A stretch of DNA of 64,000 nt from Phytoamicus setariae (GTDB lineage: Bacteria; Pseudomonadota; Alphaproteobacteria; Rhizobiales; Rhizobiaceae): NCBI RefSeq assembly GCF_016722925.1, contig NZ_JAEQNC010000008.1, positions 186,001-250,000 of the forward strand. The letters are read 5' to 3'. The translations under genes were made by a program, and so were the position numbers. Under the pieces are notes generated by a model. The model was given only the letters and a program-made list of their open reading frames with translations, was not told the origin of the DNA and searched no databases. Shown piece after piece: positions 42,510 to 60,947 of the stretch. Numbering within the stretch: position 1 is the first letter of the stretch; every line of letters begins with the position of its first letter.

Positions 42510-42793
42510 GTGAAAATTACCCCTCCGCAGGATGATTTCTACACAATAAGGGATTGTCGACAAGTAACCCCGCGGACGGCTTGGCGATGGCGTCGCTCGA
42601 ACCAGCACATAGGCGCTACCGGCATAGTACCTTTGAATGACCGAGCAATCCTATCCCTCGGCAGTCCTAACTTCGCGTATGGAAACATGTGTGCAGCCGT
42701 CCGAATTTTGGGCACATCTCGGCGCGTATGTTACCGTTACGTACTTGCAGTTGTTTAGCATTGTGCAAAGCTTGGTATCCGACCTGAAAGTAA

Positions 42794-42958: not shown

Positions 42959-42996
42959 CGAAACGCCCGCAGGCGGGCAAACCGGGAGTGTTCCTC

Positions 42997-44693: not shown

Positions 44694-44723
44694 GTACCCG
44701 CGTGTGGCATCACCAGCGGGTAC
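44694..44723. terminator. Hairpin between convergent proC and pseudoazurin genes
   Basis: A perfect 8-bp inverted repeat GTACCCGC / GCGGGTAC with a 14-base loop, 7 bases after the proC stop and 20 before the pseudoazurin stop. It fits a shared terminator, although there is no strong T-run on either strand. Confidence 0.5.
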
Positions 44724-44743
44724 AAAGCCTGATTTGTTCAGGG

Positions 44744-45190
44744 TCAGATGCCGGCGGCGGCGATGTCCGCATCCATGCGTTCGCGCGCTTTTTTCGGCAT
44801 CTTGGCAGCCTTGAGGGCGGCAACGTTGGCAGGCGTATCTCCGACCACCACGAGAGCGACCATGCCCATGCCGACGTGCGGGGTGCACTTGATCGCGTAT
44901 GCGCCCGCGACGTCGAAGGTGAATTTCACGGTTTCATTCATCTTGCCCTTGAATGGTGTCGCACCCTCCGGGATGAGGTCCTTGAAGGTTTCGGCATTGT
45001 GCGATTTGTCCGTGGGGATGAACGTGACGGTGTCGCCCTTGGCAACCTTCGTCAGGCTGGGTTCGAACACCATTGCTCCGTCCTTGCCCTTGTTCAGCAT
45101 GTGCACTTCGAAATCGGCCGCCTGCGCTGCCGTAGCCGTGGCGGCGGCCATCGCTGCGATGCCAATCACGAGTTTCGTCAAACGATTCAT
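44744..45190 (-). CDS. Pseudoazurin (blue copper electron carrier)
   Basis: 148 residues. Signal peptide cleaved near AAQA-ADF (residue 24-25). Type 1 copper ligands: His in DKSHNAETF and the C-terminal Cys-x4-His-x4-Met cluster CTPHVGMGM. The N-terminal [19 protein letters not shown] is the pseudoazurin hallmark. In denitrifiers this periplasmic protein donates electrons to copper nitrite reductase, which is encoded 13 kb away at 58061. A TTG-N8-CAA dyad lies 67 bases upstream of the start. Confidence 0.95.
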
Positions 45191-45256
45191 TCTCTTGCTC
45201 CTTCTAAAGATCCGTACTTGATGGACATCAACTTACGCTCTTCCCGAACCGCTTCT

Positions 45257-45270
45257 TTGACTTTCCACAA
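45257..45270 (-). promoter_or_regulatory. Putative NnrR box for pseudoazurin
   Basis: TTGACTTTCCACAA (TTG-N8-CAA) lies 67 bases upstream of the pseudoazurin start, in the gap behind nnrU. The half-sites fit Crp/Fnr-family NnrR binding. One of eight such dyads found in the promoter regions of the denitrification island. Confidence 0.65.
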
Positions 45271-45295
45271 ACAAACGGTCGATGTCGGGCGGGCG

Positions 45296-45982
45296 TCAGA
45301 TCGCCGACGCCATCAACGGATCGACGCCGAAGAAGGCGAGATGGGCGCCGACCAGCAACCAGATGACCACCGTTAAGGTTGTCAGCAAGCCGACAACGAT
45401 CGGCACATCCCAGCGAAGGGAGCGCGGATTGCCGAAAACTTTGGCGAACGGTACGATGCTGGTGCCGTCGATGGCCACTGCCCAACGGCTTCTCAGTCGT
45501 TTCCTGCTTCTGCGTTCCTGCAGAACGATGCCCGCCAGCGAAAACAGTGCGAAGCCGCCGAACAGGATCAAAGACCGCAAATCGCCGTTCGGAAAGACGT
45601 GGCCGAGCGACCAGAAAAAGAAGCCCCACAGCACAGGATGACGGGTGATCCTCACGATCGCGCCAATCTCCTCTCCATCGCGCCTGAGCGTAACTGAAAA
45701 GGGGTTCACGCTGAAAAGGCCCGTCAGAACGAAGAACAGTCCCAGCGGCGCGAACACAAAGGTGATCCACGACTGCCAGGCGGATGGTTGCCAAAGTTCG
45801 ATGTAGTCAGTGTTCATGGCCTCGTGGAAGAGCCAGCCGATCGCCGCCAGTGAAACCAGTGAGTAAGCAGCGAGGTAGGGCCCCCTCCCGAGCAGCCGGA
45901 TAAGCCCGTTGCGCAGCCGCGGTATCGCCGGGATCGAATGCAACGCCACGAATATCAGGAATGCGAGCAACAAGCCGGACAT
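45296..45982 (-). CDS. nnrU: NnrU family membrane protein
   Basis: 228 residues from the ATG at 45982, chosen because GGAG lies 9 bases upstream; in-frame ATGs at 45988 and 45997 are less well placed. Six hydrophobic segments (LLLAFLIFVALHSIPAIPRL at the start). Landmarks of NnrU: ALHSIPAIPRLR, RITRHPVLWGFFFWSLGH, GGFALFSLAGIVLQERRSRK. NnrU is required for full nitrite and NO reductase activity in Rhodobacter; its biochemical role is unresolved. Some resemblance to NnrU/isoprenylcysteine methyltransferase-like proteins is known. Confidence 0.9.
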   Translation of the reverse strand: MSGLLLAFLIFVALHSIPAIPRLRNGLIRLLGRGPYLAAYSLVSLAAIGWLFHEAMNTDYIELWQPSAWQSWITFVFAPLGLFFVLTGLFSVNPFSVTLRRDGEEIGAIVRITRHPVLWGFFFWSLGHVFPNGDLRSLILFGGFALFSLAGIVLQERRSRKRLRSRWAVAIDGTSIVPFAKVFGNPRSLRWDVPIVVGLLTTLTVVIWLLVGAHLAFFGVDPLMASAI

Positions 45983-46275: not shown

Positions 46276-46821
46276 ATGGCGGTGATAACGGGCGAAGGCG
46301 AAGCGAGGGGAGAAAGCGGAGACTTGATCCTGTGGATCCTGGTCTGGAGCGAACTGGCCGCTTTCGGCATCCTGATCGCAGGGTTCATGGTGATGTCCTT
46401 TCTTCACCCGGAGAGCTTCTCGATCGCCAAGCTGCACCTCGACGGACGGTTGGCGAGCCTGAACACCATCGTATTGATTGCCAGCGGTTGGTTGGCGGCC
46501 GAAGCTGCACGCGCTGTGTCGGAAAAGAAGCGCCGCATCGCCCTTATCGCTTCCGCCACGCTCGGTTTTGTCTTCGCCGCGGTGAAACTCATCGAATACC
46601 AGGGGGAGTTGCGGTTCATGGGAGACGCGACTTTCAACGCGTTCTTCGAACTTTATTTCCTGATCACCGGGTTTCATCTGGCGCACGTCGTGTTCCTGGC
46701 CCTCGTGATGTTGCTCGTCGCCCGCCGACCGGAGCGGTCCAATGTCACGCTGGTCACCACGGTCTGGCATGTGGTCGACATTGTCTGGCTGGTCATATTT
46801 CCCGTTGTCTACTTGGGGTAA
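46276..46821 (+). CDS. norE: NorE: cytochrome c oxidase subunit III-like nitric oxide reductase accessory protein
   Basis: 181 residues, five hydrophobic segments. Family III heme-copper oxidase subunit pattern, with landmarks DLILWILVWSELAAFGILIA, MVMSFLHPESFSIAKLHL and HVVDIVWLVIFPVVYLG. NorE is not a catalytic subunit; loss lowers NO reductase activity in Paracoccus and Rhodobacter. It overlaps no gene and is 3 bases before norF. Confidence 0.93.
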   Translation: MAVITGEGEARGESGDLILWILVWSELAAFGILIAGFMVMSFLHPESFSIAKLHLDGRLASLNTIVLIASGWLAAEAARAVSEKKRRIALIASATLGFVFAAVKLIEYQGELRFMGDATFNAFFELYFLITGFHLAHVVFLALVMLLVARRPERSNVTLVTTVWHVVDIVWLVIFPVVYLG

Positions 46822-46824
46822 GTC

Positions 46825-47106
46825 ATGGAACGTCGTCAAACCTGGCTGCTTGGCAGCGCCATCGGACTCACGCTCGCCGCCTGCGTGGCAGCGCTGATTG
46901 CCGCCCAGTGGAAGCACGAAGCTGTGCCGGTCGCTGCGCTCGCGATCATACTGGTCTTGACCGTCGTAAAGTCGCGCATCGTCATCCTGGATTTCATGGG
47001 CTTGCGCGGCCTGCGTCCCGGATTGTCGACCGCGCTGCTCGTATGGTCGGCGTTCTTCGCTGTCGCCACCGTGGCGAAAGCGATGGTGCAGCTGTTCGCC
47101 GCCTGA
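46825..47106 (+). CDS. norF: NorF: small membrane protein of nitric oxide reductase cluster
   Basis: 93 residues, three hydrophobic segments (GLTLAACVAALIAAQWKH; ALAIILVLTVVKSRIVILDF; LVWSAFFAVATVAKAMVQLF). The motif KSRIVILDFMGLRGL is the NorF hallmark and is shared with cytochrome oxidase subunit IV-like proteins. It follows norE by 3 bases. It is thought to help NorCB assembly or activity. Confidence 0.9.
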   Translation: MERRQTWLLGSAIGLTLAACVAALIAAQWKHEAVPVAALAIILVLTVVKSRIVILDFMGLRGLRPGLSTALLVWSAFFAVATVAKAMVQLFAA

Positions 47107-47130
47107 TGGCCCTGTCCCTTCTTGGATTTG

Positions 47131-47144
47131 TTTGCATTTTCACA
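47131..47144 (+). promoter_or_regulatory. Putative NnrR box upstream of norC
   Basis: TTGCATTTTCACAA (TTG-N8-CAA) in the 149-base gap between norF and norC, 112 bases before the norC start. The gap implies that norCBQD has its own promoter. Confidence 0.6.
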
Positions 47145-47255
47145 AAGAGGGGCTCCGCGAACTGCGACAAAGCTTGGCCGGCGGCGCATGCGACGCCTTG
47201 CATAGCCTGAAACAATTCGACCCCGCCTTTGACACGGGTATCGAGAGGGAAACCA

Positions 47256-47708
47256 ATGTCGGAACACCTGACAAAAACCGGAGCACGGAACGTCTTCTAC
47301 GGCGGTTCCGCTTTCTTCTTCGCGATCTTCGTCGCGTTGACGGCGCATAGCCACTACTACATCAAAACCACCTCCACGGACGAAACCGCGCTGACGGACG
47401 CGGTCGCGCGGGGCAAGCACGTCTGGGAAAAGAACGCCTGCATCAACTGCCACACGCTGCTCGGCGAGGGAGCGTACTTCGCGCCCGAACTTGGCAATGT
47501 CTGGACCCGCATGGGCGGCGACGAAGACGTGGAGAGCACCCGCGAAACCTTCAAGGCGTGGATGGCGGCGCAGCCGTCCGGCATCGAGGGACGTCGGCAG
47601 ATGCCGCAATTCCATCTGACAGGTCAGGAACTCAACGATCTCTCAGAATTCCTGCGGTGGACGAGCAAGATCAAGACCCAGAAGTGGCCGCCGAATGATG
47701 CCGGCTGA
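47256..47708 (+). CDS. norC: Nitric oxide reductase subunit C (cytochrome c)
   Basis: 150 residues from the ATG at 47256 (GAGAGGGAAACC upstream). One N-terminal membrane anchor (FYGGSAFFFAIFVALTAHSH) is followed by a periplasmic c-type heme domain with CINCH (C62-C65-H66). The axial Met is likely in GRRQMPQFHL. It passes electrons from a periplasmic donor, such as pseudoazurin, to NorB. norB follows after 24 bases. Confidence 0.95.
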   Translation: MSEHLTKTGARNVFYGGSAFFFAIFVALTAHSHYYIKTTSTDETALTDAVARGKHVWEKNACINCHTLLGEGAYFAPELGNVWTRMGGDEDVESTRETFKAWMAAQPSGIEGRRQMPQFHLTGQELNDLSEFLRWTSKIKTQKWPPNDAG

Positions 47709-47732
47709 TATCCAGGGGGAAGGACTACCATC

Positions 47733-49076
47733 ATGAAATATCAAACACAGAAGGTCGCGATGCTGTATTTCTACGGCGCGCTTGGCCTTTTCGTCGCCCA
47801 AGTCCTGTTCGGCGTCCTTGCGGGCACGATCTACGTATTGCCCAACACGCTTTCCGAGCTCTTGCCGTTCAACATCGTACGCATGATCCACACCAACGCG
47901 CTGATCGTCTGGTTGCTCATGGGGTTTATGGGGACGACCTACTATCTGCTTCCTGAAGAAGCCGAGACCGAGCTCTACAGCACCAAGATAGCGATCGCAC
48001 AGTTCTGGATCTTCCTGATTGCGGCTGCCATTGCCGTGGTCGGCTATCTCTTCCACATTCATGAAGGTCGAGAGTTTCTCGAGCAGCCCTTTGTCATCAA
48101 GGTCGGCATCGTCATCGTCGCCCTGATGTTCCTGTTCAACATTACCCTCACTGTCCTCAAGGGACGCAAGACGGTGGTCACGAACATCCTGATTTTCGGA
48201 CTATGGGGCGTGGCGATCTTCTTCCTGTTCGCGTTCTACAATCCGTCCAATCTCGCACTCGACAAGATGTACTGGTGGTATGTCGTCCATCTCTGGGTCG
48301 AGGGCGTCTGGGAGCTGATCATGGCCTCGGTTCTGGCCTTCCTGATGATCAAGCTCAACGGCATCGATCGGGAAGTCGTCGAGAAGTGGCTTTACGTCAT
48401 CGTCGGTCTGGCGCTGTTCTCGGGTATCCTTGGAACCGGCCACCACTTCTACTGGATCGGTGCGCCGGGCTACTGGCAGTGGATCGGCTCGATCTTCTCC
48501 ACTCTCGAAGTCGCTCCCTTCTTCACTATGGTCGTCTTCACATTCGTGATGACCTGGAAGGCGGGTCGCAAGCATCCGAACCGTGCCGCCATTCTCTGGT
48601 CGATCGGTTGCTCGGTCATGGCTTTCTTCGGCGCGGGCGTCTGGGGCTTCCTGCACACGCTGTCGTCGGTGAACTACTACACCCACGGTACCCAGGTCAC
48701 CGCAGCCCATGGCCATCTCGCGTTCTTCGGGGCCTATGTCATGCTGAACCTTGCCGCGATGGCCTATGCTGTGCCCGAAATCAGGGGTCGTGCCCCCTAC
48801 AACCAGATGCTGTCGATGGTGAGCTTCTGGATCATGTGCACGGCGATGTCGGTCATGACTTTCGCGCTAACCTTCGCAGGCGTCCTCCAGGTCCATCTGC
48901 AGCGCGTGCTCGGCGAGAGCTACATGGACGTCCAGGACCAGCTGGCCATCTTCTACTGGATCAGGCTCGGTTCGGGCGTTTTCGTCCTGATCTCGACCCT
49001 GATGTTCCTCTGGGCTCTGTTCGTGCCGGGCAGGGAGCGAATCCCCAACGTCAGCTCCCTGCACGCGGCCGAATGA
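47733..49076 (+). CDS. norB: Nitric oxide reductase subunit B
   Basis: 447 residues, 12 membrane helices. The heme and non-heme iron ligands lie in helix II (RMIHTNALIVWLL), in helices VI-VIII (GTGHHFYWIG with HLWVEGVWELIMAS) and in helix X (HGHLAFFGAYVMLNLAAMAY). The conserved Glu is in the VEGVWELI segment. It reduces 2 NO to N2O at the cytoplasmic membrane. An 11-bp hairpin separates it from norQ. Confidence 0.95.
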   Translation: MKYQTQKVAMLYFYGALGLFVAQVLFGVLAGTIYVLPNTLSELLPFNIVRMIHTNALIVWLLMGFMGTTYYLLPEEAETELYSTKIAIAQFWIFLIAAAIAVVGYLFHIHEGREFLEQPFVIKVGIVIVALMFLFNITLTVLKGRKTVVTNILIFGLWGVAIFFLFAFYNPSNLALDKMYWWYVVHLWVEGVWELIMASVLAFLMIKLNGIDREVVEKWLYVIVGLALFSGILGTGHHFYWIGAPGYWQWIGSIFSTLEVAPFFTMVVFTFVMTWKAGRKHPNRAAILWSIGCSVMAFFGAGVWGFLHTLSSVNYYTHGTQVTAAHGHLAFFGAYVMLNLAAMAYAVPEIRGRAPYNQMLSMVSFWIMCTAMSVMTFALTFAGVLQVHLQRVLGESYMDVQDQLAIFYWIRLGSGVFVLISTLMFLWALFVPGRERIPNVSSLHAAE

Positions 49077-49082
49077 GCCCAT

Positions 49083-49112
49083 GGTCCCGCCGGCTCCCGG
49101 CGGGACCGCTTT
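49083..49112 (+). terminator. Strong hairpin between norB and norQ
   Basis: GGTCCCGCCGG-CTC-CCGGCGGGACC followed by GCTTTT. The 11-bp perfect stem with a three-base loop is a good intrinsic terminator candidate. Since norQ and norD lie beyond, it probably acts as a partial terminator, giving more norCB than norQD. Confidence 0.65.
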
Positions 49113-49136
49113 TCAGACATCAGAAGGATTGGAACC

Positions 49137-49949
49137 ATGGCTTTACTTTCAACATCGGCCGGAAGCACCCGCTTCGACGTGCCCCCTTACGTACCCAACG
49201 GCAACGAATGCCAGCTGTTTGAAACCGCCTGGACCCGCCAACTGCCATTGCTGCTGAAAGGGCCTACCGGATGCGGCAAGACCCGCTTCGTCAGCCATAT
49301 GGCGGCACGCCTCGGCTTGCAGCTTTCCACGGTATCCTGCCATGACGATCTTGCCGCGGCCGACCTGACCGGACGCTATCTGCTGAAGGGCGGCGACACC
49401 ATCTGGGTGGACGGCCCGCTGACACGCGCGGTGCGCGATGGCGGCATCTGCTATCTCGACGAGATCGTCGAGGCCCGGAAGGACGTTGCGGTTGTTCTGC
49501 ACCCGCTGACGGACGACCGACGGATGCTGCCGCTGGAGCGCACCGGCGAACAGATCGAAGCGCCGCCCGGCTTCATGCTGGTCGTCTCCTACAATCCCGG
49601 TTACCAGAACATCCTCAAGGCGCTGAAGCCATCCACCAAGCAGCGCTTCGTGTCCATCGAGTTCGATTTCCTGCCGAAGGCGCAGGAAGTTGCAGTCGTC
49701 TCGGTCGAGAGCGGCCTCGACGAGGCGCGGGTGGCGCCTCTCGTGGAACTGGCGAACCGCCTGCGCAAACTCAAGGGCAACGATATCGAGGAAGGTGTTT
49801 CCACGCGCCTGCTTGTCTATTGCGCGAGCCTCATCGATAGCGGCATGGACAGGCGCGAGGCTATCCGGGCGGCGATCATCGAGCCTCTCACCGACGACCC
49901 CGATGTCAAGACGGCCTTGGCCGAAGTCGCCAACGCCCTGATCGTCTGA
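49137..49949 (+). CDS. norQ: NorQ: MoxR-type AAA+ ATPase for NorCB activation
   Basis: 270 residues. Walker A GPTGCGKTR, then ADLTGRYLLKGGDTIWVDGP, Walker B ICYLDEIVEARKDV, sensor 1 in MLVVSYNPGYQNILK. CbbQ/NirQ/NorQ family. With NorD it inserts or activates the non-heme iron of NorB. norD follows 7 bases later. Confidence 0.95.
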   Translation: MALLSTSAGSTRFDVPPYVPNGNECQLFETAWTRQLPLLLKGPTGCGKTRFVSHMAARLGLQLSTVSCHDDLAAADLTGRYLLKGGDTIWVDGPLTRAVRDGGICYLDEIVEARKDVAVVLHPLTDDRRMLPLERTGEQIEAPPGFMLVVSYNPGYQNILKALKPSTKQRFVSIEFDFLPKAQEVAVVSVESGLDEARVAPLVELANRLRKLKGNDIEEGVSTRLLVYCASLIDSGMDRREAIRAAIIEPLTDDPDVKTALAEVANALIV

Positions 49950-49956
49950 GGCGGCC

Positions 49957-51852
49957 ATGTTCGAATTCCTGGAACTCGAAGAAAGCGTCGGAAAATTCTG
50001 GCACCGGCTCGTCGGTACGACTTCAAGCATGCCGCGCTATGGCGAGCATCAGGTGACGTTCGAAGAGGTGAAGCCGTTCCTGGCCACCTGCTTTCGCGGT
50101 TTCGGCGGAGAGGCCACAGCCCAGCTTGGCCCGGCACATGCAAGAACCGCGACACACCGCCTGAGGCTGCGTCAGCTTGTGGGGCTGGGCGAAGAGAAGG
50201 CCGCTTGGGCGGGCAGGGACGGCGGCGCGGTGATGCTGCCGCCCCAGATCGACATCTTCCCGGACCAGGCACTGAACCGGGACCTCTATATCTGGCTCGC
50301 CGCCTTCATGGCTGCAATGCCGCTGGTGCCCGTGACGGTGGCCGATCCTCTGAACGCCGATCTCAGGGCGCTCGATGCGGCGAAAGCGAGTGTTCGCGCC
50401 GTGTTGAAGGCATTTCCCGGCCTCGACGCCAAATATACAGGCCTTTGCCGGGCGATCCTCAAGGAAAGAACGAGGGGAACTCTACCCCCTGTCGAGCGAC
50501 TGGTTGAAAACCGGATCGTCGGCATGCTCTCGGAGGGGGCGGGATGGCGCGACGAGAATCCGCCGGCGATCTTCCCGAAAGGCGCCCCGGCCGGATACCA
50601 GCGAATGATGATCGTCCCCCTGTGGCCGGGCTACGAACCGCGTTCGGAAGTGTTTTCCGGCGACGGCGACGAGCATCCCGGTGATGCGTCGACAAACGCT
50701 CTCGACGGCGCGGGCAAGTTCCGGGCCGATCGTGACACCAGCCGGTCGACGGGCGAGCGCAGTCCGTTCATCCTCAATCGTTTCGAAAAGATCCTGGCGA
50801 TGGCCGAGATGGTCAATGTCGATCGGCCGACGGATGACAAGGACGACGCCGACAAGGACGCGGCGCGCGATCTCGAGGAAATCAGGCTGGGGCGGAGGAA
50901 GGAGCGCCCATCCTCCAAGTTCCGTTTCGATCTCGACCTGCCGCCCGAGGCAGTCGATCCGGCCTCGATCGATGGCGAAACGACCTATCCGGAATGGAAT
51001 TACCGCAAGGGCGAATACATGCCCTCCTATTGCCGGGTGATTTGCGGCATGGCGGCGATGGAGGTCGCCAGTGTCTCGCATTCGGACGAGGAGAGGGCTC
51101 TCATTCGATCTGTGCGCAAACAGTTCGAAATTCTTCGGCCAAAGCAGGAGGTGCTGAAGGGGCAGCTTGACGGCGCGGAGCTGGACCTCGGCGCCGTCGT
51201 GAGAATGCGGGCGGACCTGATGGCCGGCGGCGAAGGTTCGGACCGGATCCACATGCTGTCGCGACCCCAGGGCCATGATCTGGCCGTGACCACGCTAGTC
51301 GACGTATCCTTGTCCACCGACGCATGGTTCGATGACCACCGCGTGCTTGACGTCGAGAAACAGGCCCTGTCGGTTCTTGCCAATGGTCTGGCGGCCTGCG
51401 GAACCAATCATTCGATCCTGACCTTCACCTCGCGCCGTCGCGCCTGGGTGCGGATCGAGACGGTCAAGGCTTTCGGCGAGGAGATGAGCGGCGATGTCGA
51501 GCGGCGTATCGCGTCCCTCAAGCCCGGATACTATACCCGGATCGGTACGGCCATCCGCCATGCCGCCGCCGGACTGGCAAAACAGCCCAACCGAACCAAA
51601 CTGCTGCTGGTGCTGACCGACGGCAAACCCAACGATATCGATCACTACGAGGGCCGCTTTGCCCTGGAGGACTCCCGGAAGGCGGTCATGGAAGCGCGCC
51701 GGAACGGCGTGTCCGTCTTCGCCGTGACCGTCGACAAGGATGCAAGGAGCTACCTGCCGTCCATGTTCGGCCGCAATGGCTTTGCGATCGTCGGCGATAT
51801 TGCCAAGTTGCCGAGAATGCTTCCTTCCATCTATCGCAGTCTGACACGCTAA
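49957..51852 (+). CDS. norD: NorD: von Willebrand-domain partner of NorQ
   Basis: 631 residues. A long N-terminal helical region (about 1-440) precedes a C-terminal VWA domain with its MIDAS metal site: DVSLSTDAW, the Thr in IGTAIRHAAA, and DGKPNDIDHY. An acidic segment (RPTDDKDDADKDAARDLEEI) lies at about residue 290. It binds NorQ and works on NorCB at the membrane. It is the last gene before the terminator at 51871. Confidence 0.94.
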   Translation: MFEFLELEESVGKFWHRLVGTTSSMPRYGEHQVTFEEVKPFLATCFRGFGGEATAQLGPAHARTATHRLRLRQLVGLGEEKAAWAGRDGGAVMLPPQIDIFPDQALNRDLYIWLAAFMAAMPLVPVTVADPLNADLRALDAAKASVRAVLKAFPGLDAKYTGLCRAILKERTRGTLPPVERLVENRIVGMLSEGAGWRDENPPAIFPKGAPAGYQRMMIVPLWPGYEPRSEVFSGDGDEHPGDASTNALDGAGKFRADRDTSRSTGERSPFILNRFEKILAMAEMVNVDRPTDDKDDADKDAARDLEEIRLGRRKERPSSKFRFDLDLPPEAVDPASIDGETTYPEWNYRKGEYMPSYCRVICGMAAMEVASVSHSDEERALIRSVRKQFEILRPKQEVLKGQLDGAELDLGAVVRMRADLMAGGEGSDRIHMLSRPQGHDLAVTTLVDVSLSTDAWFDDHRVLDVEKQALSVLANGLAACGTNHSILTFTSRRRAWVRIETVKAFGEEMSGDVERRIASLKPGYYTRIGTAIRHAAAGLAKQPNRTKLLLVLTDGKPNDIDHYEGRFALEDSRKAVMEARRNGVSVFAVTVDKDARSYLPSMFGRNGFAIVGDIAKLPRMLPSIYRSLTR

Positions 51853-52469: not shown

Positions 52470-53819
52470 TCAGGCGGCCTTGCTGAAGGTTCGTTGCGTA
52501 TCGGCCAGATACGCGTCGAACGCAGAGGCCACTGCGCGGATCATGAACCGATTTGCCTCGTCCATCGAGATGACGCCGTCCTTCTCCGTGATGACGCCGT
52601 CCTCGACCATGGCGAAGAGTCTGGCGTTGCCTTGCAGCAGGAAATCCGGCTGGAAGCCGTGGAACACGGATATGGCCGGAACGTCGACCGCGAAGTCGCA
52701 CATCAGCCTTTCGATGACATGGGCGCGCAGCCGGTCCTCGGCGGTGAGCCGATACCCCTTTGCGGTGGCAAGCGATCCCGATGCGACCCGCTTCGCGTAG
52801 AGGCCCGGAGGCACTTCGTTCTGGACGTAGCCGTCATGAAGACGCCCGATTGCCGACGCGCCGAACCCCAAAAGATTCTCGCAGTCGTCGGTGGTGTATC
52901 CCTGAAAATTCCGGCGCAGCTTCCCGGTATCCGAGGCTCTGGCCAGTTCATCATCAGGCAGCGCGAAGTGGTCGAGGCCAATACGCCGGTAGCCCGCCGC
53001 AATCAACGCTTCGGCAATCGCTTCAGCCTGCTCGTTTCGGGCCTCGGCGCCGGGCAGGGCATTCTCGTCGATCAGGCGCTGGTGCTTTTTGAAGGTTGGG
53101 ATATGCGCGTATCCGAATACGGCGAAGCGGTCCGGCCGCATGACCAGAGACGCCCGGACGGTTTCGACGCAGGAATCCACTGTCTGGTGGGGGAGACCGT
53201 AGATGAGGTCGAAATTGATGCGGGCGATGCCGCTGTCGCGCAACAGACGCACGGTAAGGTCAGTGGTCTCCTCGGACTGGATGCGGTTGATTGCCTTTTG
53301 GACAACGGGGTCGAAGCTCTGGACACCGAGGCTCGCGCGGGTCACGCCCGATTCCCCCAGGGCGCTGGCCATATCGGCTGTCAAGGTTCGCGGATCGATC
53401 TCGACGGAAACGTTTGAATCCGGTCTCACAGCGAATCTCCCTCTCAGCCGTTGCATAAGCGCGGCGAACTCGTGGGGTTTGATGATGGTGGGAGTGCCCC
53501 CGCCGAAATGGATTTCCTTGACGTCGAGCGGGGAGGAGGTCGCTTGCGACACCAACTCGATCTCGCGGTGGAGGACATCGAGGTAGTCCAGGATGGGCTG
53601 GTCGCGTTCGGTAATCGTGGTATGGCACCCGCAATACCAACACATGGACCGACAGAACGGAATGTGGAGGTAGAGCGATGTGGCGCCGGCCCCAATGCCC
53701 TTGATCCAATCGACATATTCCGTCGACCCGATCGTATCCGAGAATTTCGGGGCGGTCGGGTAGCTCGTGTAGCGCGGCAGCCGCGCGTCGCCGTATTTGG
53801 TAACGAAGTCGTTTGACAT
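52470..53819 (-). CDS. hemN: Oxygen-independent coproporphyrinogen III oxidase
   Basis: 449 residues from the ATG at 53819 (AAGAGG 8 bases upstream). Radical SAM motif HIPFCRSMCWYCGCH, preceded by the HemN YTSYPTAPKF box. Further landmarks: EIHFGGGTPTII, NFDLIYGLPHQT, IGLDHFALPDDELARA. It supplies heme when oxygen is low, matching the heme demand of NorCB. Two TTG-N8-CAA dyads lie upstream, at 53874 and 53916. Confidence 0.95.
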   Translation of the reverse strand: MSNDFVTKYGDARLPRYTSYPTAPKFSDTIGSTEYVDWIKGIGAGATSLYLHIPFCRSMCWYCGCHTTITERDQPILDYLDVLHREIELVSQATSSPLDVKEIHFGGGTPTIIKPHEFAALMQRLRGRFAVRPDSNVSVEIDPRTLTADMASALGESGVTRASLGVQSFDPVVQKAINRIQSEETTDLTVRLLRDSGIARINFDLIYGLPHQTVDSCVETVRASLVMRPDRFAVFGYAHIPTFKKHQRLIDENALPGAEARNEQAEAIAEALIAAGYRRIGLDHFALPDDELARASDTGKLRRNFQGYTTDDCENLLGFGASAIGRLHDGYVQNEVPPGLYAKRVASGSLATAKGYRLTAEDRLRAHVIERLMCDFAVDVPAISVFHGFQPDFLLQGNARLFAMVEDGVITEKDGVISMDEANRFMIRAVASAFDAYLADTQRTFSKAA

Positions 53820-53873
53820 CCGATTCATCCTCTTTTTTCCAGCAGACAGTATCCGTTGACGAGATGTGTCTCT

Positions 53874-53887
53874 TTGCCTTGGCGCAA
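53874..53887 (-). promoter_or_regulatory. Putative NnrR box for hemN
   Basis: TTGCCTTGGCGCAA (TTG-N8-CAA) lies 55 bases upstream of the hemN start, a distance like those of the norE and nnrR dyads. CGCAA is a full half-site of the type seen at 46211. Confidence 0.65.
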
Positions 53888-53915
53888 ACCAGCGCGCTGA
53901 CAATTTGGAAGGTCT

Positions 53916-53929
53916 TTGCTCCGCGACAA
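53916..53929 (+). promoter_or_regulatory. Putative NnrR box for the DUF2249 operon
   Basis: TTGCTCCGCGACAA (TTG-N8-CAA) lies 80 bases upstream of the first DUF2249 gene (54009) and 42 bases (start to start) from the hemN-side dyad. The divergent pair suggests one box per promoter. Confidence 0.65.
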
Positions 53930-54008
53930 AGTACCGGATGACGACGTCGCCTACCTTCGACACCATCGGCGCATAGCGCTGCGATGATTAAACGTCACAG
54001 GAGACAAT

Positions 54009-54281
54009 ATGCTCAATTCCTCCAACATCCCCGAAGTCGACGTGCGGCTGATACCCCCGCCCCATCGCCATCCGACCATATTCGGCGTCCTTACCGCGCT
54101 GGCACCGGGCGGTGCGATGCATGTGACGAGCGATCATGATCCCCGGCCGCTGCACTACCAGATCGAGACCAGATATCCCGATGAGTTCGGCTGGCTCTAC
54201 CTCGAGCAGGGACCCGAGGTGTGGCGCGTGCAGATCACCCGCGCCGACAGCTCCGGCTGCGATTGCTGCTGCGGGCACTGA
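54009..54281 (+). CDS. DUF2249 protein with Cys-rich C-terminus
   Basis: 90 residues. EVDVRLIPPPHRHPTIFGVL opens the DUF2249 fold, ALAPGGAMHVTSDHDPRPLH and IETRYPDEFGWLYLEQGPEV continue it. The tail ends SSGCDCCCGH, four Cys and a His in ten residues, which could bind iron, copper or zinc. The function of DUF2249 is not established; it occurs repeatedly in denitrifying and NO-stressed bacteria. It opens a four-gene set with little spacing. Confidence 0.88.
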   Translation: MLNSSNIPEVDVRLIPPPHRHPTIFGVLTALAPGGAMHVTSDHDPRPLHYQIETRYPDEFGWLYLEQGPEVWRVQITRADSSGCDCCCGH

Positions 54282-54294
54282 GGTCAACTTAGAG

Positions 54295-55650
54295 ATGCCC
54301 GGGGCTTCGATATCGCGATGGACAATGGCCTATTTCGCGGCCTCGCTCGCCTTCTTCGTGGCGGCGCTGGCGCTGATGGGCTTCGGGTTTGGTATTCCGT
54401 TCCCGGTGATCGATGCTCCGGATACTCTCGTCGTCGTCCACTTGATTGCAGTGGGGTGGCTTGGATTGTTGTTCAGCGGTGCGCTGTTGCAATTCGTTCC
54501 GGTATTGGCGGCCACCCATTTGCGACTGCCGGGTCTTGCGGTGCCAGCTCTTGTCGCGATCGCAGCTGGACTGTCCTTGCTTCTAGCAGGCTTCCTCGTC
54601 CTGGGCGGGCATCTCGATCTCGACCCGGCAGCGATGTTTGTCGGGGGCATTCTTCTCGCCATCGGGTTCCTCTTCCTGATCACCTCGTTTGCGGCGACGA
54701 TCGTTTCCCAGAAGTCATTCGCCGTCTCCGGCTCGCTTGTGCTCGCGGGGCTTTTCGCCCTTGGCGTCACCGCCGTAATGGGTGTCGTGTTTGCCGGATT
54801 GCTGTCGGGCATGGTGGAGGCGCCATTCCTGTCCTCCCTTCTGCCACTTGCCGTGCCATATCATGCCGCATCCGGCACCCTGGGCTGGATGACGCTCGCC
54901 GCCATCGGTGTCAGCTACCGTCTGTTTGCCATGTTCATGCTTTCCCCGGAAACCAAGGGTCGGGACAGGTCGATCTTTGTGCTTGCCGCCAGTGCTCTTG
55001 CAGCACTCTATCTGTCGCTGGTTGTGGTCGGCCTGGATGAACGGCTTTCGGCCGCAACGATGGCGCTCGCCATCGCCCTGGCGCTCGTGCTGATGGTTCT
55101 ATATCTTCGGGATGTGGCCCTGATGTTGAAAGCCCGGCGCCGAAGGCAGCTCGAGCTCAACTCCCTGGCAGGGATGGCAGCATTGGTGTTCTTGGGCGTG
55201 GGCATGGCGTTGCTTGCGAGCAGCACTCTGTTCGGCGACCACTTGCCCCTGGGTCCGACCGCCTTCTACATACTGGGCCTGGGGTGGCTGTCCGGCCTTG
55301 GACTCGCCCAGCTCTACAAGATCGTGCCATTTCTGACATGGCTGGAGACCTATGGTGCCGTGATGGGGAGGTCGCAGGTTCCCAGGGTGCAGGATCTTGT
55401 GGATGAAAGAGGCGCAAAAGTGTGGTTCGTCGTTTACTATCTAAGCGTCTGCCTCGGGGGCGCAGCGATCCTGCTAGGGTGGGAACCGGCCTTCCGTGCG
55501 GCAAGCTGGCTGCAATGTGGGGCAGTCATAGTCCTCTCGGTAGAATATGTCCGGGCGAGGAGACTCGCCTACGCTCCGAGCCACATCAGGCTGCCCACAG
55601 GCACCGTGCGACCGTATCTCATCTGCGCCAAACCCGATTCAAAGGAGTAA
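54295..55650 (+). CDS. Twelve-helix membrane protein of the denitrification island, unknown
   Basis: 451 residues from an ATG with GAG upstream (an earlier in-frame start at 54136 would sit inside the DUF2249 gene). About 12 hydrophobic segments without a charged loop domain. Conserved-looking His positions near helix ends: VVHLIAVGWLGLLFSG, AATHLRLPG, VPYHAASGTLGWMTLAAIGV, FGDHLPLG. The His-in-helix pattern recalls heme-bearing NnrS and heme-copper oxidase subunit I, but I cannot assign a family. 13 bases from the upstream DUF2249 stop, 3 before the next start. Confidence 0.8.
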   Translation: MPGASISRWTMAYFAASLAFFVAALALMGFGFGIPFPVIDAPDTLVVVHLIAVGWLGLLFSGALLQFVPVLAATHLRLPGLAVPALVAIAAGLSLLLAGFLVLGGHLDLDPAAMFVGGILLAIGFLFLITSFAATIVSQKSFAVSGSLVLAGLFALGVTAVMGVVFAGLLSGMVEAPFLSSLLPLAVPYHAASGTLGWMTLAAIGVSYRLFAMFMLSPETKGRDRSIFVLAASALAALYLSLVVVGLDERLSAATMALAIALALVLMVLYLRDVALMLKARRRRQLELNSLAGMAALVFLGVGMALLASSTLFGDHLPLGPTAFYILGLGWLSGLGLAQLYKIVPFLTWLETYGAVMGRSQVPRVQDLVDERGAKVWFVVYYLSVCLGGAAILLGWEPAFRAASWLQCGAVIVLSVEYVRARRLAYAPSHIRLPTGTVRPYLICAKPDSKE

Positions 55651-55653
55651 TCG

Positions 55654-56166
55654 ATGGTAACCGAATTCAAAGAGTTGGATGTTCGCCCGATCCTGGCGAG
55701 TGGGGACGAGCCGTTTCAGGCAATCATGGCGGCCGTGGAGGCATTGGCTCCCGGGCAAGGCCTGACCCTTCTTGCTCCCTTCAAGCCGCAGCCGCTGTTC
55801 TCGGTCATGGAAAAAAAGGGTTTTGCCCATCAGGTCTCCGAGCTTGAGGGAGGAGACTTCGAGGTCAGGTTCCTGCCGCGCGGCACGGAGGTTCTCGCAT
55901 CCGAGGATGCGCTGGCGGCCGATGTCTGGCCAGAGCCAATCCGTGAATTCGATTTTTCGGACCTTGATCCGCCGCAGCCGATGGTCCGCATCCTGTCCGA
56001 ACTTGAGACGATGTCGCCGGGCGAGGTGCTGTTCGTGGTCCTGGCGCGCGAGCCGATCTTCCTTTTTCCGGAGCTGACGAAACGGGGCCACCAATGGGTA
56101 GGAAACTACGACAAAAGCGGCGCGGCATTTCGCATGATGGTGAAGCGAGGGAGTGCTGACGCGTGA
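55654..56166 (+). CDS. Tandem DUF2249 protein
   Basis: 170 residues with two DUF2249 units: residues about 5-75 (ELDVRPILASGDEPFQAIMA, PGQGLTLLAPFKPQPLFSVM) and about 95-165 (EFDFSDLDPPQPMVRILSEL, PGEVLFVVLAREPIFLFPEL). Each ends with the family's KKGFAHQVSELEGGDFEVRF-like turn. There are no Cys here, unlike in the 54009 paralogue. It overlaps by one base with the DUF59 gene (TGATG). Confidence 0.85.
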   Translation: MVTEFKELDVRPILASGDEPFQAIMAAVEALAPGQGLTLLAPFKPQPLFSVMEKKGFAHQVSELEGGDFEVRFLPRGTEVLASEDALAADVWPEPIREFDFSDLDPPQPMVRILSELETMSPGEVLFVVLAREPIFLFPELTKRGHQWVGNYDKSGAAFRMMVKRGSADA

Positions 56167-56453
56167 TGCCGGATGATGCAGGACGACTGACGAAAAGCAT
56201 CCGGGAGGTCTTGCAGGATGTGATCGACCCGGAGATCGGCGGAAGCGTGGTCGACATCGGTCTCATCTACGCTGTCGAAAAGCGGGGTGAAGCCCTCCAC
56301 GTGCTAATGACGACAACGACCCGTGGCTGTCCCGCCGCGCAATTCCTTGTCGACGCGGTCAAGCAGCGCATTCTTGACGCGGGCCTTGCCGACCGGGTGG
56401 AGGTCGAGTTGACCTATGATCCGCCGTGGTCTCCGGACATGATGCGCAAGTGA
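56166..56453 (+). CDS. DUF59/MIP18-family Fe-S assembly-like protein
   Basis: 95 residues. IREVLQDVIDPEIGGSVVDI then GLIYAVEKRGEALHVLMTTT and TTRGCPAAQFL match the MIP18/PaaD/SufT fold, with the single conserved Cys present. Family members help load Fe-S clusters into target enzymes. In the NO-related operon, it may repair clusters damaged by NO. It follows the tandem DUF2249 gene with one base overlap and ends the set. Confidence 0.88.
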   Translation: MPDDAGRLTKSIREVLQDVIDPEIGGSVVDIGLIYAVEKRGEALHVLMTTTTRGCPAAQFLVDAVKQRILDAGLADRVEVELTYDPPWSPDMMRK

Positions 56454-56646: not shown

Positions 56647-57873
56647 TCATTGCGTTCGGGCTGACGGTTTCCGCCGCGCGACCAGCATCGGTCCGTATTC
56701 GATCAGGTAAAGGCCGAAGGCAGCGAGCCAAAGAATGCCGGCGACGGCGTAAATGGCTGGCGCATGATCGGGCATGAAAGCCGTCGAGGGTCGCGCAAGG
56801 GCGCATGCGAAGATGGCGGCGTAGCTGATGCATGTCGTCACCGACGCGGTGAGCTCCCGCCCGGTGTGACCGCGTGTGGCTCGTGTCATCACCGCCAGCA
56901 TCATCGACGTAATCGTTCCGACCGTCAGCACGTGCAATACGGCGGTGCTTTCCATCAGGCCAAGGGCTGCGGCCGAAATCGCCGCGAATCCCGCCGGGAC
57001 CAAGGCATAGGACAGATGCAGGACGACGACCAGAGGTTCCCGCCACGTGGTCCATCCCCGCCATCTCCAGAGCCGCACACCCTGCAGAAGCGCCGCGGAC
57101 GCAGTGACGCCAGCAGTCAAACTACTCTCGGGCAGCACGATCCAGAGCGCGAACGCCGGAACCGACAGCAGGATCACCGTAAGGTCGAAGCCGTTGTACG
57201 GCACCGGGAAATCCGTCCGTCCGGATTTGTTGAGCCAGTTCCTGGTGAAGCTCGGCAGGATGCGTCCGCCGACGATCACGATCATCATCGTATATGCCGC
57301 AATTGCAAGCCGTTGGGAATAATCGGGTCCACTGCCTGCCAGGGTCTCATAATGGTAGCAGATGTTCGCGACGGTTAGCGCGCCCAGCCCCGCGATCACC
57401 TTCAGGTCGGCCCATTTCCGCCCGGCGACGATCTCCCTGACGCAGACGACGAGGATCGTCGGCAGGAATGCGGCCTCCACCAAAGCGGCTGGCAGGAGCC
57501 CGATCAGGTCGGTGGACACCAGGGCCAGCCGTCCCGCAAACCAAAGCAGAAACAGGACGAGGAGGGGAGGCCCGGAAACCGGTAGCCGCCCGGTCCAGTT
57601 GGGAACGGCCGTCAGGAGGAAGCCCGTCACAATGGCGGAGCCGAATCCGAAGAGCATTTCGTGGCCGTGCCACGCGCTGGCTCCGTAGTCGCCGCCGATG
57701 CCGATGAACCCCATCATCGCCATGATCCACAGGATCATGGCGAGGCAGGCACAAAGCGCGCCGCCGAGAAAAAATGGACGGAAACCATAGGAAAACAGGA
57801 CCGGCCCAGTTGCGGACAGTCCTCGGGGTATCCCGCCTTTCCTGCGTGTCTGTTGAACTATCGCTTCGGTCAT
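56647..57873 (-). CDS. nnrS: NnrS family heme-copper membrane protein
   Basis: 408 residues, about 12 helices. NnrS landmarks: [20 protein letters not shown] at the N-terminus, [48 protein letters not shown] and, near the end, [16 protein letters not shown]. NnrS binds heme and copper and protects cells from NO stress. Its start lies 54 bases from the dyad at 57927. Confidence 0.94.
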
Positions 57874-57926
57874 ATCGCGCTCCTGTCATTTTGATCGAAG
57901 CATAGAGCGCATGCGCATTTTGCTCT

Positions 57927-57940
57927 TTGCGGAAAGGCAA
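57927..57940 (-). promoter_or_regulatory. Putative NnrR box for nnrS
   Basis: TTGCGGAAAGGCAA (TTG-N8-CAA) begins 54 bases from the nnrS start and lies 120 bases before nirK. Its position matches the nnrS promoter better than the nirK promoter. Confidence 0.65.
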
Positions 57941-57969
57941 GCTGCGGGTCGTCGAATTGTGGCGGAATA

Positions 57970-57983
57970 TTGTTTTGGAACAA
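57970..57983 (+). promoter_or_regulatory. Putative NnrR box for nirK
   Basis: TTGTTTTGGAACAA is the most symmetrical of the set (5-bp arms TTGTT/AACAA). It lies 78 bases before the nirK start, as expected if transcription starts near 58025. Confidence 0.72.
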
Positions 57984-58060
57984 AGAGGGTCGGCGTCATC
58001 AGGCATACCGTCATCCTCAATGGAGCGGAGAGAGCTTCGCTCCCAATAAGGAGAAGTCAA

Positions 58061-59197
58061 ATGACCAAGCAGTTCGAAATCACCAGACGCTCGGTTCTCG
58101 CAGGCGCGGCGTTCGCAGGTGCCTTGATGCCAGCTGTTGTCGCCACGGTCGCGAACGCGAACCAGGAAGTTAGCGCCGTCAAGCCAGCTCCAGTCGATCT
58201 GGCAGGGCTCCAGCGGGTGAAGCTGGAACTGGTAAAGCCTCCTTTTGTCCACGCGCACACCCAGAAAGCCGTGGGCGGCCCGAAAGTCTATGAAGTCACG
58301 CTGACGATCGAGGAAAAGAAGCTCGTTATCGACGACGCAGGAACGGAGGTCCATGCCATGACCTTCGACGGTTCGGTTCCCGGTCCCATGATGGTGGTCC
58401 ATCAGGACGATTATGTGGAGCTCACCCTCGTCAATCCAGAGACCAACGAACTCCAGCACAATATCGACTTCCACTCGGCTACAGGGGCCCTCGGGGGCGG
58501 CGCGTTGACAGTTGTAAACCCCGGCGAAAAGGCGGTCATGCGCTTCAAGGCCACTAAGGCGGGTGTCTTTGTCTACCACTGCGCACCTCCGGGAATGGTT
58601 CCCTGGCACGTGACCTCGGGCATGAACGGCGCGATCATGGTGCTGCCGCGCGATGGCCTCAAGGACCACAAGGGCAACGAGCTGGTCTATGATCGGGCCT
58701 ACTATGTGGGCGAGCAGGACTTCTATGTGCCTCGTGACGAAAAGGGCGAATACAAGAAATACGAGACCGTCGGGGATGCCTATGCCGACACTCTCGAAGT
58801 CATGAAAACGCTCACCCCGAGCCATATCGTCTTCAACGGCGCCGTCGGCGCTCTCACAGGCGCCAATGCGCTGAACGCAAAAGTCGGCGAGAAAGTGCTC
58901 ATCCTGCATTCGCAGGCTAACCGCGACACTCGCCCGCATCTCATCGGCGGACATGGCGACTATGTCTGGGCCACCGGCAAATTCGCCAACCCGCCGGAGC
59001 TCGATCAGGAAACCTGGTTCATCCCCGGCGGTGCGGCGGGCGCAGCCTTCTACACGTTCCATCAGCCCGGCATCTATGCCTATGTGAACCACAATCTGAT
59101 CGAAGCCTTCGAGAAGGGCGCTGCCGGTCATTTCAAGGTCGAGGGCGAATGGAACAATGATCTGATGACTGCGATCGTGTCGCCGAACAGTCATTGA
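58061..59197 (+). CDS. nirK: Copper-containing nitrite reductase
   Basis: 378 residues from an ATG with AAGGAGAAG upstream. Tat signal [20 protein letters not shown]. Copper ligands: [12 protein letters not shown] (first type-1 His, then Asp and type-2 His), [18 protein letters not shown] (type-2 His, type-1 Cys, His and Met), and [20 protein letters not shown]. The catalytic second His lies in GGHGDYVW. Periplasmic, it reduces nitrite to NO using pseudoazurin electrons. Confidence 0.97.
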
Positions 59198-59267: not shown

Positions 59268-60176
59268 ATGGCGGCCCATAACGCAAGTACCAACGCGGTA
59301 TCGCTGTTTTCCTTGATGCTGCCGACAGTCGTGGCCCTCGGCTTCGCATTCGGCATTGCATCGCAACTCGGACTTGTCGGCACACCTGACGTCGACAGCA
59401 GCCTCGCTCCGCAGACGATTACCATACCAAGGCATGAGTTCTCCTATAGGGCGGACGGCGAGTTCTACAAGGACGGGTTCGCTGTCGACGCCCCCATGGT
59501 TACAGCGCGCGATCTCGGTCCGCTTGTGATCATGAAGTACCAGGTGTCGGAAGCGGAATACGCCCGGTGCGTCAATGAGAGCAAATGCGCTCCGCTGGCA
59601 GCCGCCGATGTTCACGGTGACGATAGGCCGGCCACGGGTGTGAGCTATGACGATGCGGTCAAATACGCTCTATGGCTAAGCGAGATGACGGGCGAGGTCT
59701 GGACATTACCCCGGCACGAAGAGATCGCGTATGCCGCAGCGGATCGTTTCCTGGATGATGCGCTCGGCGTTGATCCGGACAGCAGGAACCCAGCGCTGCG
59801 CTGGCTTGCCGACTACGATCGCGAGACAAGGCGCAAGGCGGAAAGCGACCCGGTGCCGAAGCCGAGGGGGCATTTCGGCGAGAACGAATACGGCTTGGCC
59901 GATTTCGCCGGCAATGTCTGGGAATGGACGTCGACCTGCCAGCGGCGGGTGGATCTGGCTGAAGCGGAAGCGCCGGTGTCGTCGGTTTCCACCTGTGGGA
60001 TCTACGTGACGGTCGGCCAGCACCGCTCTCCGATGAGTTCGTTCGTGCGTGACCCGAAGACGGGCGGTTGTGCAGTCGGCGCACCACCGGCGAATCTTGG
60101 TTTCAGATTGGTCCACGACGACCGATGGATTGCCAACATGCTGATGAAGCTGCGGGACCGCGGCATAATATCCTGA
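59268..60176 (+). CDS. nirV: NirV: SUMF1/formylglycine-generating-like protein
   Basis: 302 residues. One N-terminal membrane anchor (FSLMLPTVVALGFAFGIASQ) puts the C-terminal FGE-sulfatase domain in the periplasm. Landmarks: VIMKYQVSEAEYARCVNESK, PATGVSYDDAVKYALWLSEM, FGENEYGLADFAGNVWEWTS and NLGFRLVHDD. NirV follows nirK in many denitrifiers; the role is unknown. Twelve bases from the stop there is no gene until nnrR. Confidence 0.93.
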   Translation: MAAHNASTNAVSLFSLMLPTVVALGFAFGIASQLGLVGTPDVDSSLAPQTITIPRHEFSYRADGEFYKDGFAVDAPMVTARDLGPLVIMKYQVSEAEYARCVNESKCAPLAAADVHGDDRPATGVSYDDAVKYALWLSEMTGEVWTLPRHEEIAYAAADRFLDDALGVDPDSRNPALRWLADYDRETRRKAESDPVPKPRGHFGENEYGLADFAGNVWEWTSTCQRRVDLAEAEAPVSSVSTCGIYVTVGQHRSPMSSFVRDPKTGGCAVGAPPANLGFRLVHDDRWIANMLMKLRDRGIIS

Positions 60177-60251: not shown

Positions 60252-60947
60252 TTGAAGATCGACAAAAGCGTGGTTCGCCGTTTCTCGCTGTTCGACAAAA
60301 TGCCGGATTCCGACCTCGAAGCCCTGCTTGCGCAAGCAACGCCTAGGCGGGCTGCCGCAGGGGAGGCGATGTTCGAACAGGGAGCCGAGGCGACCCACTT
60401 TTTCCTTCTGATCAACGGGCGTCTCAAGGTCACGCAAGTCACGGCCGATGGGCAACAGATCATCGTCCGCGTCGTCCATCCGGGCGATCTCTTCGGATTT
60501 GCAAGGGCCCTGCGGCGGGCTGACTATCCCGGAACGGCGCTGAGCGTGATAGAAAGCCTGGCCTTGACCTGGCCAACCGAGCTCTGGCCGCAGTTTCTCG
60601 ACCGAAGTCCCTATCTGGCGGTGAGTGCTCTGAACACGATCGGACAACGGCTGGATGAGGCCCATACCCGGATTCGGGAGATGTCGACGCAGGAAGTCGA
60701 ACGGCGCGTGGCGCATACCGTCTTGCGCTTGAGCCAGCAGGCCGGACGCACGGAAGATAACGGCGTTCGGATCGACTTCCCGATTACGCGTCAGGACATC
60801 GCGGAGATGACCGGGACGACACTTCACACGGTGTCCCGGATCTTGAGCGCCTGGGAGTCGAACGGCCTTGTCGAAGGGGGGCGTCAGAAACTGCTGGTAC
60901 GCGACTCGGTGCGTCTTCAGGCATTGGCGGACAGTTCAGACTCTTGA
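60252..60947 (+). CDS. nnrR: NnrR: Crp/Fnr-family NO-responsive regulator
   Basis: 231 residues from a TTG start (GGAGG at 60242-60246). The N-terminal cyclic-nucleotide-like beta barrel (about 20-120; FEQGAEATHFFLLINGRLKV) is followed by a dimer helix and a helix-turn-helix (ITRQDIAEMTGTTLHTVSRI). The protein has no Cys at all, which excludes an FNR-type Fe-S cluster and favours the heme/NO-sensing NnrR/DNR group. The recognition helix has HTVSR where FNR has ETISR. It closes the denitrification island. Confidence 0.9.
   Translation: MKIDKSVVRRFSLFDKMPDSDLEALLAQATPRRAAAGEAMFEQGAEATHFFLLINGRLKVTQVTADGQQIIVRVVHPGDLFGFARALRRADYPGTALSVIESLALTWPTELWPQFLDRSPYLAVSALNTIGQRLDEAHTRIREMSTQEVERRVAHTVLRLSQQAGRTEDNGVRIDFPITRQDIAEMTGTTLHTVSRILSAWESNGLVEGGRQKLLVRDSVRLQALADSSDS

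Follow-up and report, generated by a model that had tools for sequence, protein, structure and literature searches.

A conserved cassette of DUF2249 and DUF59 proteins with a heme-copper oxidase-like membrane protein, associated with nitric oxide production in denitrifying bacteria

Several described protein families resemble parts of a four-gene cassette in the window analyzed here, a stretch of 64,000 nucleotides from Phytoamicus setariae (Alphaproteobacteria, Rhizobiaceae; contig NZ_JAEQNC010000008.1, positions 186,001 to 250,000). The cassette encodes a small DUF2249 protein (D1), a putative membrane protein (TM), a tandem DUF2249 protein (D2) and a DUF59 protein (D59). Pei et al. (2014, Protein Sci) reportedly described three-unit proteins with homology to heme-copper oxidases (HCO) that have 12 helices, two conserved histidines and one heme and occur in a denitrification context. 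NnrS is a 12-helix, HCO-like protein as well, and a study of it is said to have found that it protects iron metabolism from nitric oxide (NO). HCO and NO reductases (NOR; PF00115) have six conserved histidines, including the FeB/CuB and high-spin heme ligands, and TusA sulfurtransferases carry a catalytic cysteine. COG4309 is presumably the same family as DUF2249. Genes of COG4309 were placed in NnrR and NsrR regulons (Rodionov 2005; PMC1274295); like D1, they are NO-regulon genes in rhizobia, and the available part of that paper mentions neither TM nor D59. A nitrate respiration cluster of Thermus encodes DrpA, with a single DUF2249, and DrpB, with a tandem DUF2249, and DrpAB double mutants make the nitrate reductase protein with low activity (PMC6282519). 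The two Drp proteins thus form a single and tandem pair like D1 and D2, whereas DrpB has a DUF1858 domain that D2 lacks, and the part of the paper available reports no TM or DUF59 protein with them. A haloarchaeal nar operon contains a DUF2249-containing iron-sulfur (Fe-S) carrier, and the same source (PMC11218638) cites Pei et al. (2014) for a connection of DUF2249 with the HCO superfamily.

The preliminary description of this stretch treated the cassette as a candidate novel NO-response system and knew of no described function for it. Two elements were already in print, namely DUF2249 genes in NO regulons (since 2005, if COG4309 is DUF2249) and the link of DUF2249 to HCO proteins. What stands of the novelty is that no account of the TM protein or of the four-gene cassette was found in the literature, in a search that left out most subscription journals and is not proof of absence. 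The four genes are arranged as follows:

54009..54281, forward strand: D1, single DUF2249 protein of 90 amino acids with the tail CDCCCGH (open reading frame and Pfam)
54295..55650, forward strand: TM, predicted 12-helix HCO-fold membrane protein of 451 amino acids with invariant H49 and H190 (model and alignment)
55654..56166, forward strand: D2, tandem DUF2249 protein of 170 amino acids, second half TusA-like, no cysteine (Pfam and model)
56163/56166..56453, forward strand: D59, PF01883 (DUF59/MIP18-like) Fe-S assembly factor of 96 amino acids with conserved Cys56 (Pfam and alignment)

The TM start at 54295 is an in-frame start within a longer open reading frame listed from 54136. Gaps of 13 bases (D1 to TM) and 3 bases (TM to D2) were confirmed, and D2 and D59 overlap by 1 base if D59 starts at the ATG at 56166, as first described, or by 4 bases if it starts at the GTG at 56163. 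We read TM, D2 and D59, joined by D1 where it is present, as an accessory unit that may protect iron and Fe-S proteins from NO made by the cell itself, built around a three-unit HCO homologue with one heme. This reading is tentative, with a probability of roughly 0.42. Gene order, conservation, the predicted fold, the repeats, the invariant residues, the upstream boxes and the co-occurrence of genes were observed or computed directly.

TM had no match in Pfam, NCBIfam, PHROGs or PDB sequences. The alignment of TM proteins comprised the window and 28 of 31 loci (alignment A1; L006 and L030, at contig ends, and L028, in two frames, were left out), and one of these 29 members touched COX1 (PF00115) at 6.6e-4; the window TM did not match PF00115. 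An AlphaFold2 model of TM (29 sequences) showed 12 long helices with a mean pLDDT (predicted local distance difference test) of 90.2. Foldseek searches of the PDB with this model gave 59 matches at E ≤ 0.001, and all 50 listed were chains of HCO or NOR entries. The best matches were to cbb3 oxidase (6.0e-7) and cNOR (6.5e-7), and TM-scores by query length were 0.56–0.72 among the matches listed. TM comprises three four-helix units that are mutually similar (hhalign 5.7e-6, 6.1e-5 and 1.4e-3), of which unit 1 best resembles HCO helices 9–12 (E 2.1e-5), with H49 aligned to NorB H328. Six histidines are present in the window TM; H49 and H190 alone are conserved, and they are the only invariant histidines of the family (62/62 relatives with domains >380 residues at E ≤ 1e-60). 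The same 62 relatives share F14, G54, G62, Q66, P69, V70, G92, G163, G197, M213, F214, G330, L340, I343, F346, W349 and G358. H49 (helix 2) and H190 (helix 6) occupy the equivalent place of units 1 and 2, and unit 3 has no such histidine. Of the earlier picture of a 12-helix protein with histidines at helix ends, the model bears out the 12 helices, and two of the histidines are conserved.

On this model, TM is a homologue of HCO with room for a single heme at most as a possibility, and the HCO fold and the two invariant histidines make it probably a heme protein, as the first description had suggested in proposing a membrane metal- or heme-protein. TM fits the three-unit HCO-homology proteins that Pei et al. 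reportedly described in its fold (12 helices in the predicted model), its three homologous four-helix units and its two conserved histidines (62/62), and no Pfam or NCBIfam model matched TM. It shares its fold with NorB and CcoN (PF00115), with unit 1 resembling their helices 9–12, but retains just two of the histidines and hence lacks the FeB/CuB ligand set. NnrS (PF05940), like TM, is an NO-regulon membrane protein, and it adjoins the cassette in the window. Unlike TM, with its two invariant histidines, the 12 NnrS proteins aligned here have six, and there was no profile match between the two. Assignment of TM to NnrS was rejected, as neither Pfam nor profile similarity was found.

Of the small proteins, D1 matched DUF2249 (PF10006; E 1.7e-27, 95.5 bits against a cut-off of 29.5), and its conserved residues are R20, D42 and H43 (28/28 each) and H21 (27/28). 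The cysteine tail CDCCCGH, which had been singled out in the preliminary description, is indeed carried by the window D1. Some relatives of D1 share a tail of this kind, but many do not, and we therefore rejected it as a defining metal site. Pfam confirmed both the tandem DUF2249 protein and the MIP18-like Fe-S factor. D2 matched PF10006 in two stretches (E 5.6e-33, 113 bits against 29.5), and its second half matched TusA (PF01206; 1.4e-7, 31.7 bits against a cut-off of 28.6). The D2 model had a pLDDT of 88.0 and a pTM (predicted template modeling score) of 0.58; TusA was its best Foldseek match (1dcj at 8.9e-3, with 3lvj at 3.4e-2, probability 1.00), and none reached ≤ 0.001. The fold is shared with TusA, but the conserved cysteine is not: no cysteine or histidine is conserved among 43 D2 sequences, and the window D2 has no cysteine at all. 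Sulfur transfer by D2 was consequently rejected for want of the catalytic cysteine. D2 has also lost the conserved histidines of D1. D59 matched PF01883 (E 8.5e-13), with Cys56 present in 46/46 sequences. Its scores lay far under the NCBIfam cut-offs for TIGR02945 (72.0 vs. 143.4 bits), TIGR03406 (68.6 vs. 202.6), TIGR02159 (53.7 vs. 108.15) and NF041868 (71.2 vs. 180), and it is thus not a SUF-associated, SufT or PaaD equivalog.

Scanning across bacteria and archaea returned 31 TM loci, and further genome searches added more. In clade I (45 loci), D2 lies directly downstream of TM in 43/45, D59 is present in 44/45 and D1 lies directly upstream in 21/45; the exceptions are L030, at a contig end, which has neither D2 nor D59, and L031, which has no D2. 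The core of the cassette is TM-D2-D59, and D1 is optional. TM was found by tblastn in 112 plasmid records, 50 of them from Sinorhizobium and 41 from Rhizobium. TM relatives were present in 57 of 398 genomes of a phylum sample and in 12 of 249 genomes of the window's order (the order sample), two of the latter (G161 and G185) with weak or partial matches. Within the order sample, a tandem DUF2249 gene (defined by two hits within the same frame at E ≤ 1e-5) occurred in 11/12 genomes with TM and in 1/237 without it, and D1-type DUF2249 genes without TM were found in 22 genomes. One genome (G190, C5:54795-61153) carries norB, a DUF2249 gene and nirK on one contig and has no TM match; D1 and the TM-D2-D59 core are therefore separable in nature.

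Other arrangements were seen in more distant relatives. Clade III consists of two loci from Sulfurovum metagenome-assembled genomes (L032 and L034), whose TM proteins are distant (22–23% identity); TM there adjoins D59, and next to the pair is a gene for a large molybdopterin oxidoreductase that is probably napA. The fetched stretch contained no match to DUF2249. In four loci (L083, L085, L089 and L094), a D2-related DUF2249 gene adjoins a distant TM and shares its strand, and D59 is absent. In 7/8 longer flanks of clade II, the neighbor of TM is a divergent hemerythrin-DUF2249 gene (the exception, L075, is a short contig); its domain calls come from one member (L078), where DUF2249 scored 28.4 bits, just under the 29.5 cut-off. 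A gene of one family, with a hemerythrin domain and a sub-threshold DUF2249 domain in the member checked, was observed near TM at 11 loci outside clade I (L076–L084, L089 and L094), divergent in L076–L082 and on the TM strand in the other four, forming a second partner set. A rubrerythrin-like gene and a nosR-like 4Fe-4S gene recurred in the flanks of L008, L011, L026, L027 and L088.

The distribution of TM was compared with that of denitrification genes. In the order sample, nirK was found in 8/12 genomes with TM and 41/237 without (p 3.5e-4), norB in 5/12 and 33/237 (p 0.022), and nnrS in 12/12 and 115/237 (p 2.4e-4). Genomes having DUF2249 without TM contained nirK or norB in 14/22 cases compared with 43/215. 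A phylum subsample set 37 genomes with TM (≥90% complete, from 51 newly found) against 43 without TM, chosen by handle number. Here, nirS (E <1e-100) was found in 21/37 and 2/43, respectively, and norB (E <1e-60) in 14/37 and 6/43, with three weaker matches besides in genomes with TM. Either nirK or nirS was present in 27/37 compared with 11/43 genomes when all nirK matches at ≤1e-30 were counted (p 2.3e-5), and in 25/37 compared with 8/43 when weak matches were excluded (p 9.4e-6). TM is tied more strongly to nirK and nirS, and thus to NO production, than to nor. A strictly nor-only role was dropped, as norB was present in just 5/12 order-sample genomes with TM, and the factor common to TM hosts is NO production rather than one enzyme. 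Co-occurrence with nor and nnrS had been put forward as a check; the nnrS part held in every TM genome of the order sample, and the tie to nor proved the looser one for a unit that is accessory. Likewise, the expectation that the genes would be found together and with nir or nor was borne out in clade I and by the nirK and norB counts, and it did not extend to the 22 genomes with D1-type genes alone or to clade II.

Two boxes precede the cassette, in agreement with the NnrR-type box first reported there:

53874..53887, no strand assigned: TTGCCTTGGCGCAA, FNR/NnrR-type box (TTG-N8-CAA) in the hemN/D1 intergenic region
53916..53929, no strand assigned: TTGCTCCGCGACAA, second FNR/NnrR-type box (TTG-N8-CAA), 93 bases upstream of D1

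The NnrR consensus is given as ctTTGcgnnnncgCAAag in the available part of PMC1274295. A TTG-N8-CAA box within ~400 bp upstream was found in 34/47 cassettes compared with 170/1481 background windows (binomial p 3e-22, a value that is overstated because several loci are near-duplicates and thus not independent). The misses in this count include L028, whose gene is split, and both clade III loci, and near-identical loci were counted separately. One box starts 78–190 bases from the estimated gene start in 31/34 box-bearing cassettes; outside the window cassette, distances run to the point where the profile match begins. This conserved upstream box, a predicted site, would place the cassette in an NnrR/FNR regulon. 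Crp/Fnr-type genes occurred in 28/51 TM flanks (Pfam check on one member). Two papers on rhizobial NnrR targets name hemN and nnrS and, in the parts available, not this cassette (PMC6710368, PMC4064527), and a literature search with the Sinorhizobium meliloti locus tags turned up no data on their expression.

The proposed mechanism is as follows. TM would be a three-unit HCO homologue in which the binuclear site is lost and one histidine pair remains (H49 of helix 2 and H190 of helix 6), most likely holding a single heme. At the cytosolic face, D2, a tandem DUF2249/TusA-like protein free of cysteine, could serve as an adaptor and D59 as an Fe-S assembly factor, with D1 as an optional single-DUF2249 partner. 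The whole unit would be under NnrR/FNR control and would shield the iron and the Fe-S proteins of the cell against NO from its own nitrite reductase. The protective role was judged the best fit because a membrane heme protein and an Fe-S assembly factor occur together. NnrS, which is also a 12-helix protein and belongs to the same cluster, has reportedly been proposed to act in this way.

Several points weigh against this proposal. Heme binding, topology, a complex of the products and the protective function are all properties that we infer. The profile link between TM and HCO is weak, coming from one comparison at E ~1e-5, and an alternative register (E 4.9e-4) aligns H49 to the NorB helix-6 histidine and H190 to H326; because the two registers compete, the HCO counterparts of H49 and H190 are ambiguous. 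Profile comparison found no sequence link between TM and NnrS, in a test that was not very sensitive because our own small-set NnrS profiles also missed NorB and CcoN. NnrS itself is merely a postulated NO sensor with no demonstrated role according to the available part of PMC9409073. In clade II (17 loci, L058–L074), no D2 or D59 match was found in the fetched stretch, and both were absent from 8/8 longer flanks (L075–L082); the Fe-S helper is therefore not universal. Of the TM genomes, 4/12 in the order sample lack both nirK and norB by our queries (two of these being G161 and G185, with weak TM matches), and 10/37 in the phylum subsample lack both nirK and nirS. Against a tight link, TM is missing from 41/49 nirK-positive and 33/38 norB-positive order-sample genomes, and we consequently regard the unit as accessory. 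Finally, the Fisher p values take no account of kinship between the genomes, and the 43 controls were unmatched by family.

Two other explanations are possible but rather unlikely. The cassette could be a sensor or regulatory unit, in which D1 and D2 act like DrpA and DrpB in relaying a nitrate, nitrite or NO signal and TM is a membrane heme sensor. The Drp architecture and mutant phenotype, as given in the available part of PMC6282519, are consistent with this, as are the Crp/Fnr-type genes in TM flanks and the divergent hemerythrin-DUF2249 gene of clade II. However, the cassette contains no transcription factor or kinase, D59 would be left unexplained, and the conserved histidines of D1 are lost in D2. 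About equally doubtful is a maturation role, by which TM, D2 and D59 would help build NirK, NirS, NOR, Nap or cbb3 oxidase. In favor of this, the family description of PF01883 is that of Fe-S assembly factors, the nitrate reductase of the DrpAB double mutants has low activity, and the Sulfurovum TM-D59 pair adjoins the probable napA. No single client fits, however, as some genomes with TM have nirK, others nirS and only 5/12 norB, and most nirK- and norB-positive genomes of the order sample do without TM.

An improbable extension of the protective proposal would make the cassette a membrane-anchored machine for repairing NO damage, with a heme between helices 2 and 6. The HCO-fold protein would collect NO or electrons, and D2 would couple it to D59, which would rebuild nitrosylated Fe-S clusters at the membrane where NO is made. 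The helix 2/6 pocket is not known to carry a heme in the oxidases. A small-molecule transporter with a TusA-fold partner, as in the TsuA-TsuB thiosulfate system, is very unlikely: the D2 model did match TusA and the TsuA-TsuB complex (weak E-values, probability 1.00), but TM has the HCO fold and D2 no conserved cysteine. Least probable by far is catalysis by TM as an NOR or oxidase, which the HCO fold and the presence of TM in some nirK-positive genomes without a norB match at 1e-40 (G005, G023 and G179) might suggest and which we rejected because TM has only two invariant histidines, the FeB/CuB ligands are missing and the window TM does not match PF00115. We thus retain protection from self-made NO as the preferred reading, and the preliminary description as a whole is partly supported.

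The surrounding genes of the window complete a denitrification cluster, in the order norEFCBQD, a cupredoxin gene, the hemN-like gene, D1-TM-D2-D59, nnrS, nirK, the nirV-like gene and a Crp/Fnr regulator:

46276..51852, forward strand: norEFCBQD (starts: norE 46276, norF 46825, norC 47229, norB 47733, norQ 49137, norD 49957)
52470..53966, reverse strand: radical SAM gene, hemN-like and divergent from the cassette (Pfam; hemN name from relatives), its true start probably near 53819
56647..57873, reverse strand: nnrS (Pfam, E 5.5e-109)
57911..59197, forward strand: nirK, copper nitrite reductase (multicopper oxidase domains; name from relatives with the same order)
59268..60176, forward strand: FGE-sulfatase domain protein (Pfam), nirV-like, a name that we take to apply to this gene
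60252..60947, forward strand: Crp/Fnr regulator, presumed nnrR (same position in relatives; name inferred)

The names norB, norQ and norD follow Pfam (NorD through its VWA domain and gene order), and norE, norF and norC follow the translations and the gene order of relatives. The listed start of the nirK frame (57911–58061) appears too early, with a twin-arginine-like signal starting ~150 bases further downstream; the interval between the two contains TTG-N8-CAA boxes at 57927 and 57970. Two open reading frames, at 42637–43677 (346 amino acids) and 44702–45376 (224 amino acids), had no Pfam match at 0.01. The gene order of the cluster is also found in S. meliloti LMB1 and on a plasmid labelled Roseateles sp. 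XES5 (NZ_CP084753.1, L097); both records annotate TM as a "hypothetical protein", and D59 is not in the LMB1 gene table, which is itself incomplete. The Roseateles-labelled plasmid (a betaproteobacterium; organism unverified) carries the entire rhizobial nor-cassette-nirK order, which suggests either transfer between classes or a mislabelled record. On pSymA of S. meliloti 1021, norBQD, hemN, D1, TM, D2, D59, nnrS, nirK and nirV follow the order of the window, with the cassette at 687402–690102.

S. meliloti 1021, a model symbiont, carries the four-gene form on pSymA, which makes the role of DUF2249 and HCO-like proteins in denitrification directly testable. TM is an unannotated HCO-fold protein found in 57 of 398 genomes of the phylum and tied to the nitrite reductases that produce NO, and the cassette is relevant to the way in which denitrifiers withstand the NO that they make.

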